Shown here piece after piece: positions 1,069 through 3,368 of a stretch of 64,000 nucleotides of DNA (position 1 is its first letter; every line of letters starts with the position of its first letter). The notes beneath the pieces were generated by a model. The model searched no databases. It was not told the DNA's origin and was given only the letters and a program-made list of their open reading frames with translations. Made by a program: the position numbers and the translations under genes. Source of the stretch: an uncultured archaeon (GTDB lineage Archaea > Thermoproteota > Nitrososphaeria_A > Caldarchaeales > Wolframiiraptoraceae); assembly GCA_938083505.1 (NCBI GenBank), contig CALKCF010000002.1, positions 143,065 through 207,064 on the forward strand. Reading direction: 5' to 3'.

Positions 1069-2442
1069 ATGGTAACACTAACCACATCAGGCTCTGTTTT
1101 GAGTTACACCCCAAGTTTTGAACTTTTAAATAGGTGGGTAATCGAAAAGCAAATTTGTTGTTATTGTGGCACATGTGCAGGTGTATGCCCCAGGATAGTA
1201 TTGAATGGAAAAGTTCCAAGACTCATAGATTACTGTTCCGAGTGTGGAAATTGTTATAAATACTGTCCCCAGACCTACACACCTGTTAATGAATTTGAGA
1301 GAAAAATATTCCCTGGCACAAATAAGGAAGAATATTTAGGATACTACGAAAAATGCATATTTGCACAAAGTACCGATAAAAGCATACTTTCCGTAGCGCA
1401 AAACGGAGGTTTAGTGAGTGCATTATTAATTCATGCATTGGAGACCGGGCTAATAGATGGCGCCATTCTGACAATAACTGACAAAAATTGGATGCCTAAG
1501 CCCATGCTTGCTAGAACCCCTGAAGAAATAAAGAGGGCGGCTGGCTCAAAATATGTTATGTCCCCAAATATGTTGATTTATCGCGAAGTAATTAATGATC
1601 CGACGATTAAAAAGGTCGCTGTCGTAGGACTTCCATGCCAAATTAGGGCTGCAAGGAAGTTACAAATGGAGCCTATAATCCCTGTTGAGAATGGAAAGAT
1701 CGAGTTTATAATCGGATTATTCTGCCACAGGAATTTTTCCTATGAGGGTCTATTGGAGACGGTTAAAAAGATTCTAAACATCGATCTCTACGAGGTAAAG
1801 AAGTTCGATATACGGAAGGGAAAGTTCACGATCCTCACCCAGGAGGGTAAACAAGTAGAGTTACCTGTAAAAGAGCTCAGCAAACATTCTTGGTCGTCGT
1901 GCGCTTCCTGTACTGACTTCACGGGAAGGTTGGCGGATATATCTGTCGGCAATGTTGGCATCATAGACGTCGATTGGAGCTTGGCTATAGTCAGGTCTAA
2001 GAAAGCCATGGAGCTCCTAGATAGTGCAGTGAAAGCTGGAAAGCTGAGAATAGCCGAGGGTAAAGATGCTATAGAAGTAATATTAAAAGAGGCACAAAAG
2101 AAGGCAGAGAGGCGGGAAAAGGTTAGTGAGCTACTGTACCAATACTTCTCTGAGCTTGGCATACCTTCAGACGAGGTGCGTGCATACTTTACTCTGCTGA
2201 CACTAGGAGGTGCCAGTTCTGAAGAGCTCTCAAAAGCACTCAACATTGGTGGGGCAGAATTAGATGCAATTCTTGCGAGGCTCTGTGAAAAAGGATGGAC
2301 AGTTAAGCATGAAGACCGTTATATACCTACTAGACCGTCTCTCGTTCTACGAATTGAAGTGACAAAGTTCCACAATTTAATCAAGAAGGTTTTAGAGAAA
2401 GAGTCTGAGTTGGAGGGCATATACGCAAGGAAGTTTGGCTAG
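1069..2442 (+). CDS. FrhB/FpoF-like coenzyme F420 hydrogenase/dehydrogenase beta-subunit family protein with N-terminal 2x[4Fe-4S] and C-terminal winged-helix-like extension
   Basis: CCYCGTCAGVCP and CSECGNCYKYCP motifs followed by FrhB-family body (AQNGGLVSALLIHALETGLIDGAI; VVGLPCQIRAARKL; GLFCHRNFSYEGL). Confidence 0.85.
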   Translation: MVTLTTSGSVLSYTPSFELLNRWVIEKQICCYCGTCAGVCPRIVLNGKVPRLIDYCSECGNCYKYCPQTYTPVNEFERKIFPGTNKEEYLGYYEKCIFAQSTDKSILSVAQNGGLVSALLIHALETGLIDGAILTITDKNWMPKPMLARTPEEIKRAAGSKYVMSPNMLIYREVINDPTIKKVAVVGLPCQIRAARKLQMEPIIPVENGKIEFIIGLFCHRNFSYEGLLETVKKILNIDLYEVKKFDIRKGKFTILTQEGKQVELPVKELSKHSWSSCASCTDFTGRLADISVGNVGIIDVDWSLAIVRSKKAMELLDSAVKAGKLRIAEGKDAIEVILKEAQKKAERREKVSELLYQYFSELGIPSDEVRAYFTLLTLGGASSEELSKALNIGGAELDAILARLCEKGWTVKHEDRYIPTRPSLVLRIEVTKFHNLIKKVLEKESELEGIYARKFG

Positions 2443-2620
2443 TCGCATCTACGCTATTTTTCATTGTTGAACGTCGCTTGCTCACATTATCAACTATTCC
2501 GTAATTGGTAGAGAATATAGAATATACTACGACATAATAAGGTTCACGCGCAGACTCTTCCATCAGCATCCTTAATGATATTAATAACTACCTCAACCCG
2601 GCCCCGGGTTCAAAAAATCT

Positions 2621-2727
2621 TGGCGCCCTTCGGCGGGTGGGGTTTTCAACCCTCCCATGGCCGGGATTTGAACCCGGGTCCGGCGGGCGACAGCCGCCGA
2701 TACTAGACCGGACTATACTACCAGGGC
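2621..2727 (-). tRNA. tRNA-Asp(GTC) with CCA encoded and a ~29-nt intron in the 3' acceptor strand (after position 68)
   Basis: Acceptor GCCCTGG, D arm, anticodon arm CGGCGG-CTGTCGC-CCGCCG (GTC), T arm CCGGG-TTCAAAT-CCCGG, then CCA[29 nt]GGGC-G-CCA. Removing the insert restores CCAGGGC pairing to GCCCTGG. BHB: CGGC/GCCG central helix with CAT and AAG bulges. Confidence 0.88.
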
Positions 2728-2831
2728 TCCATCTGAATATGGTAAAAAGAACCTCTATAAAGCAATTCTTAAAGTTTTCTAGAAAATTAAGGTAGCAAGG
2801 ATTTTATCCCAGCATAAAAGGTTTTGGCTAC

Positions 2832-3368
2832 ATGGAGCCAAGGGAGCTTTTAGGTATAATAAAGGGAAGGAGATCTGTGAGAAGGTTCTTGGAGAAGAGG
2901 ATTCCTGACGAGTGTCTGAAGCTCATAATGGAGGCGGGCATATGGGCTCCAAGCGGGAGCAACATACAGCCATGGCAGTTCATTCTCGTAAGAGACCCCA
3001 TATTGATAAAGAAGATAAAGCTCATATCTCCAGGCCTATTTGGTAACCCTGATGCACTGATCGTAGCGTGTGTGGACAAGAATAGGTACGAGAAGGCTGG
3101 TAAGATAGGCTACACGCTGTCGCTCATGGACATATCCATGGCAACCCAGAACATGATGCTAATGGCGTACAGCCTCGGCATAGGGTCATGTCCGATAGCA
3201 TCTTTCAACAAGCTAGCCGTGAGTGAAATTCTCGAGCTCCCGGATAGCTTTGAACCTGTCTTGATGATCAGTTTAGGGTATCCTGAAGAGTGGCCTCGTC
3301 CTCCAGAAAGGAGGCCTCTTAGTGAGGTGGTTTATGTAGATGGTTATGGAAAGCATTATAGAGGATGA
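2832..3368 (+). CDS. Nitroreductase family protein
   Basis: RRSVRRFLEKRIPDECLKLIMEAGIWAPSGSNIQPWQFILV motif and overall length. Confidence 0.88.
   Translation: MEPRELLGIIKGRRSVRRFLEKRIPDECLKLIMEAGIWAPSGSNIQPWQFILVRDPILIKKIKLISPGLFGNPDALIVACVDKNRYEKAGKIGYTLSLMDISMATQNMMLMAYSLGIGSCPIASFNKLAVSEILELPDSFEPVLMISLGYPEEWPRPPERRPLSEVVYVDGYGKHYRG

Follow-up and report, generated by a model that had tools for sequence, protein, structure and literature searches.

Non-canonical bulge-helix-bulge (BHB) introns of archaeal tRNA genes have been reviewed for the Thermoproteales and for Caldiarchaeum (PMC4090602, PMC4033280, PMC12397907) and are associated with a two-subunit splicing endonuclease, EndA (PMC4033280, PMC12397907). 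The acceptor stem is mentioned among their sites, with 3/4 described as the extreme position (PMC4090602; PMC12397907). In Caldiarchaeum subterraneum, the tRNA-Thr(GGU) gene is disrupted by an integrated element (PMC3293823). The link between tRNA introns and integrating elements has long been debated.

The window analyzed here, a stretch of 64,000 nucleotides, comes from a hot-spring archaeon of the genus Ca. Terraquivivens (family Ca. Wolframiiraptoraceae) and carries, at 2727-2621 on the minus strand, a tRNA-Asp(GTC) gene broken by a 29-nt intron in the 3' strand of the acceptor stem. This intron is like the known non-canonical introns in its BHB motif, its short length, the number found per gene (one to three) and the presence of a two-subunit EndA, and unlike them in its location at position 68/69 of the acceptor 3' strand. 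Non-canonical archaeal introns are thus already known, but this position appears to be new with respect to the intron-position lists of the reviews, which the comparison covered; a literature search returned no report of a 68/69 intron, nor of any tRNA in Terraquivivens. A first, sequence-only reading had described acceptor-stem introns as known mainly from Thermoproteales-like and some other TACK genomes; the lineage here is of the Aigarchaeota type and does not belong to the Thermoproteales. The known split tRNAs include the same isoacceptor, disrupted at 37/38 into separately transcribed halves, whereas the Terraquivivens exons are contiguous but for a 29-nt spacer. They lie on one strand and not at separate loci with separate promoters, as trans-spliced genes would, and the 5' and 3' halves stand in the normal order, not in that of a permuted tRNA. 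Nor does the 68/69 intron itself show an integration scar of the Caldiarchaeum tRNA-Thr type.

Anatomy of the tRNA-Asp(GTC) gene

Exon 1 (nt 1-68, from GCCCTGG to CCCGGCCA; 2658-2727, supported by ARAGORN and by reading of the sequence) is followed by the intron, TGGGAGGGTTGAAAACCCCACCCGCCGAA (2629-2657), and by exon 2 (nt 69-76; 2621-2628), which comprises GGGC of the acceptor 3' strand, the discriminator G73 and an encoded CCA, all on the minus strand. The junction folds as a strict BHB, in which the exon strand CGGC (nt 63-66; 2660-2663) pairs with the intron strand GCCG (2631-2634) in a 4-bp central helix supported by the BHB test and by covariation. This helix is flanked by two 3-nt bulges, CA^T at the 5' splice site (2657-2659) and AA^G at the 3' splice site (2628-2630), each with its predicted cut after the second base. 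The inner GGG:CCC helix belongs to an intron hairpin (2635-2656; GGG A GGGTT GAA AACCC CA CCC) supported by folding and by covariation of the inner helix, and the outer helix has only 2 bp. The combination of exon 2 and BHB occurred in 62 of 400,000 random 70-mers drawn from the window. Removal of the intron gives GCCCTGG:CCAGGGC with 7/7 acceptor pairs and restores a standard tRNA that is accepted by ARAGORN. The coordinates, the 29-nt length, the excision product CCAGGGC complementary to GCCCTGG and every detail of the BHB had been proposed by the sequence-only reading and were all recovered here, the minus strand being added. Upstream of the gene, a TATA-like box (TTTAAG, 2768-2773, minus strand), recognized by eye and present in most congeners, may act as promoter.

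The same locus could be taken for a tRNA-Asp that has no intron but a mismatched acceptor stem (CCATGGG), downstream of which GGGCGCCA would occur by chance. Indeed, ARAGORN reports on the unspliced gene a tRNA-Asp(gtc) at 2653-2727, extending into the intron, and the Rfam tRNA model also accepts this form (41 bits). However, 2/7 acceptor positions then fail, with a C4-T69 mismatch and a G1-G72 apposition, and the discriminator is A, as against the perfect 7-bp stem obtained after splicing at the predicted junction CCAGGGCGCCA. Furthermore, intron length and sequence differ from species to species, whereas the sequence of exon 2 and the BHB strands are constant, and the unspliced reading mostly fails altogether in the genes of another class described below. 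The intron-less form was rejected on these grounds, and we consider it very improbable. Many such genes are mis-ended or missed by default tRNA callers.

Covariation was analyzed on 15 sequences from 15 genomes, all of which form the BHB, G446 with 3/4 central pairs. Standard pairs occupied 94.4% of the BHB cells, the corresponding values being 80.7% for shuffles and 36-56% for slid controls, and the covariation score was 0.448 against 0.185 for shuffled data, with 0/500 shuffles reaching 0.448, these figures being inflated by the relatedness of the sequences. In the four sequences with a T-stem beginning GC rather than CC, the exon-intron pair at columns 18:49 has changed from G-C to C-G; such a switch is what a real BHB would predict. 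Excision of the 68/69 intron in the cell is a prediction that is well supported by comparison.

The only tRNA-Asp gene found and its proposed processing

The genome (1.15 Mb, 98.5% complete, 10 contigs) yielded 41 tRNA-model hits. The sequence-only reading had asked whether another tRNA-Asp was present elsewhere, and none was found among these hits. A draft assembly in 10 contigs at 98.5% completeness leaves some room for a degenerate or pseudo-tRNA locus, the real tRNA-Asp having been missed. Against this, none of the remaining tRNA hits is Asp, the exon sequence is conserved in congeners and the intron-bearing gene is the best match in all six Terraquivivens genomes. We consider a pseudogene very improbable. 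We conclude, with a probability of about 0.95, that this Ca. Terraquivivens archaeon has here its one functional gene for tRNA-Asp(GUC), whose 68/69 intron would be cut out by EndA and whose exons would be joined by the ligase RtcB.

Both the splicing endonuclease and RtcB are encoded in the genome. One EndA subunit (L068, 189 aa) aligns to an EndA subunit of Aeropyrum pernix (E = 2e-50) and keeps the catalytic-histidine motif (GPGIDHAPF). A second, divergent EndA-type protein (L069, 183 aa) is without histidine at the catalytic motif, which is as expected for a putative structural beta subunit. In the proposed pathway, the 3' side of the acceptor stem is interrupted in the transcript by the 29-nt intron, which follows nt 68 and precedes nt 69. 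The two-subunit EndA would recognize the BHB formed by nt 63-66 and the intron strand and would cut at CA^T and AA^G, after which RtcB would presumably ligate the exons and complete the acceptor stem. End processing and charging could then follow. As the acceptor stem is incomplete until splicing, charging with aspartate must wait.

When the precursor is folded freely, its minimum-energy structure contains the T-arm but no BHB. For Terraquivivens precursors, the penalty for enforcing the BHB is 7.6 kcal/mol at 37 °C and 2.9 kcal/mol at 75 °C, because nt 63-65 are shared with the T-stem. Since the T-arm prevails in the free fold, splicing would have to compete with T-arm folding or precede it, or else EndA would have to remodel the T-arm. 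The BHB borrows bases of the T-stem, and the 68/69 intron thus tests how far the two-subunit EndA reaches into the tRNA.

Distribution and origin of the 68/69 intron

The 68/69 intron is present in 6/6 Terraquivivens genomes, among them the four named congeners Ca. Terraquivivens yellowstonensis, ruidianensis, tikiterensis and tengchongensis, with a length of 29-31 nt and a variable loop sequence. The tRNA-Asp genes of two sister-genus genomes (L055 and L059), which adjoin the same nitroreductase gene and the same gene of 101 aa, are uninterrupted, as are at 68/69 the tRNA-Asp genes seen in other families of the order. Since the intron occurs in all six congeners and is absent from the syntenic locus of the sister genera, the simplest reading is that it was gained, or converted in, on the Terraquivivens branch, which we regard as most likely.

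Across 400 genomes of the phylum, a pattern search returned the six Terraquivivens cases and one further true case (G229), which belongs to a class distinct from that of the window; a match in G128 was dropped, its gene being uninterrupted at the site (CCAGAGC-A-CCA). A second survey, confined to the class of G229, found the 68/69 intron in the tRNA-Asp of at least 9/151 genomes, from seven genera and seven families; the counts of these surveys are minima, since parts of the exons and of the 3' splice site are prescribed by the pattern. The introns of this class differ in sequence from those of Terraquivivens and have the same BHB, with compensatory exon-intron changes included. Several of these genes are interrupted more than once: at 6/7, 15/16 and 68/69 in G229; at 5/6, in the variable/T region and at 68/69 in G421; and in the anticodon loop, in the T-arm and at 68/69 in G430. 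An insert in the D-arm of G418 and G419 gave no strict BHB on testing.

The sequence-only reading had also suggested an evolutionary intermediate towards a split or permuted tRNA-Asp. The present data do not support this suggestion: the exons lie 29 nt apart, and the 68/69 intron is maintained throughout the genus and found again in another class. In T. tikiterensis the tRNA-Asp gene has undergone a split-like rearrangement (see below), but in the D-arm and not in the acceptor stem.

The two groups could owe the 68/69 intron to common ancestry or to transfer of the tRNA-Asp gene rather than to independent gain. The same tRNA, position and BHB register are found in the at least nine genomes of seven families, and introns on the 5' side, at 5/6 or 6/7 and at 15/16, are likewise seen in both groups. 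On the other hand, the intron sequences have no resemblance beyond the BHB, and the sister genera are intron-less at the syntenic locus. We keep a shared origin as a tentative proposal, plausible but somewhat short of being favored.

Additional introns and a possible role of integrating elements

The tRNA-Asp gene of T. ruidianensis carries, besides the 68/69 intron, another at 5/6 that forms a strict BHB (TGCC:GGCA, CT^A and AG^G), so that its acceptor stem is broken on both strands. The 5/6 intron was taken as 18 nt long, beginning at the second GCCCT copy; the alternative of 33 nt, beginning at the first copy, was rejected for want of an inner helix (1 bp versus 5). In T. tikiterensis, the additional intron lies at 15/16 (BHB GTAT:GTAT, AG^A and AG^T), and the first 23 nt of the tRNA-Asp are in addition found alone on contig C31 (58956-58978). 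The native upstream nitroreductase gene is about 100 nt away from this lone fragment, and a tyrosine integrase gene (PF00589) comes after it. On the extracted locus (L065), the lone 5' half and the integrase span 1957-3319, of which the integrase occupies 2033-3319; a neurotoxin helical domain in this protein is a weak Pfam match far below the cut-off and was taken as spurious. The complete tRNA-Asp is on contig C34, where the native downstream gene lies beyond a set of electron-transfer genes, and GTATAGTCCGGTCT is present at both junctions.

The simplest reading of this arrangement, proposed also for the Caldiarchaeum tRNA-Thr, is that an element inserted itself into the D-arm, with the native 5' half staying behind and a new one, already bearing an intron, coming from the element; the integration is inferred, since contigs C31 and C34 are unjoined. 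The case is like that of the Caldiarchaeum tRNA-Thr in its separated 5' fragment beside the native upstream gene, its adjacent recombinase gene and its rebuilt tRNA with an extra intron, and unlike it in the tRNA concerned (tRNA-Asp), the position (15/16) and the genus. With the same position used in two classes, this apparently element-borne intron of a congener offers a second natural case for the link between introns and elements. The 3' end of a tRNA gene serves many integrases as target, and the 68/69 intron would break it up.

The heptamer GCCCTGG of the 5' acceptor strand is repeated exactly 10-29 nt upstream of the gene in 6/6 tRNA-Asp genes with an interrupted 5' half (leaders of L035, L036, L100, L101, L102 and L103), and no such copy was seen in roughly two dozen checked tRNA-Asp genes with an intact 5' half. 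A broader view would make tRNA-Asp a recurrent target of integrating elements whose attachment sites are tRNA halves with introns, the 5/6, 15/16 and 68/69 introns, and perhaps the GCCCTGG leader copies, being scars of successive integrations spread between classes on such elements; we regard this scenario as rather unlikely.

Other tRNA genes gave minor observations. One tRNA gene is present at the ends of two contigs of the window's genome (C1, 11-106, and C3, 221444-221539), probably through assembly overlap. The tRNA-His(GTG) gene of the window (19644-19550, minus strand) has a 21-nt intron at 9/10 (19634-19614), with a near-canonical BHB of 3/4 central pairs; this intron occurs in 5/6 Terraquivivens genomes and is absent in T. 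tengchongensis and in two sister genera. The leader of the gene (19654-19647) holds a copy of its own 5' strand (GGCCGCGG, which contains a palindrome), a feature found in none of the other tRNAs of this genome. The copy is kept, with one mismatch, in the intron-less gene of T. tengchongensis.
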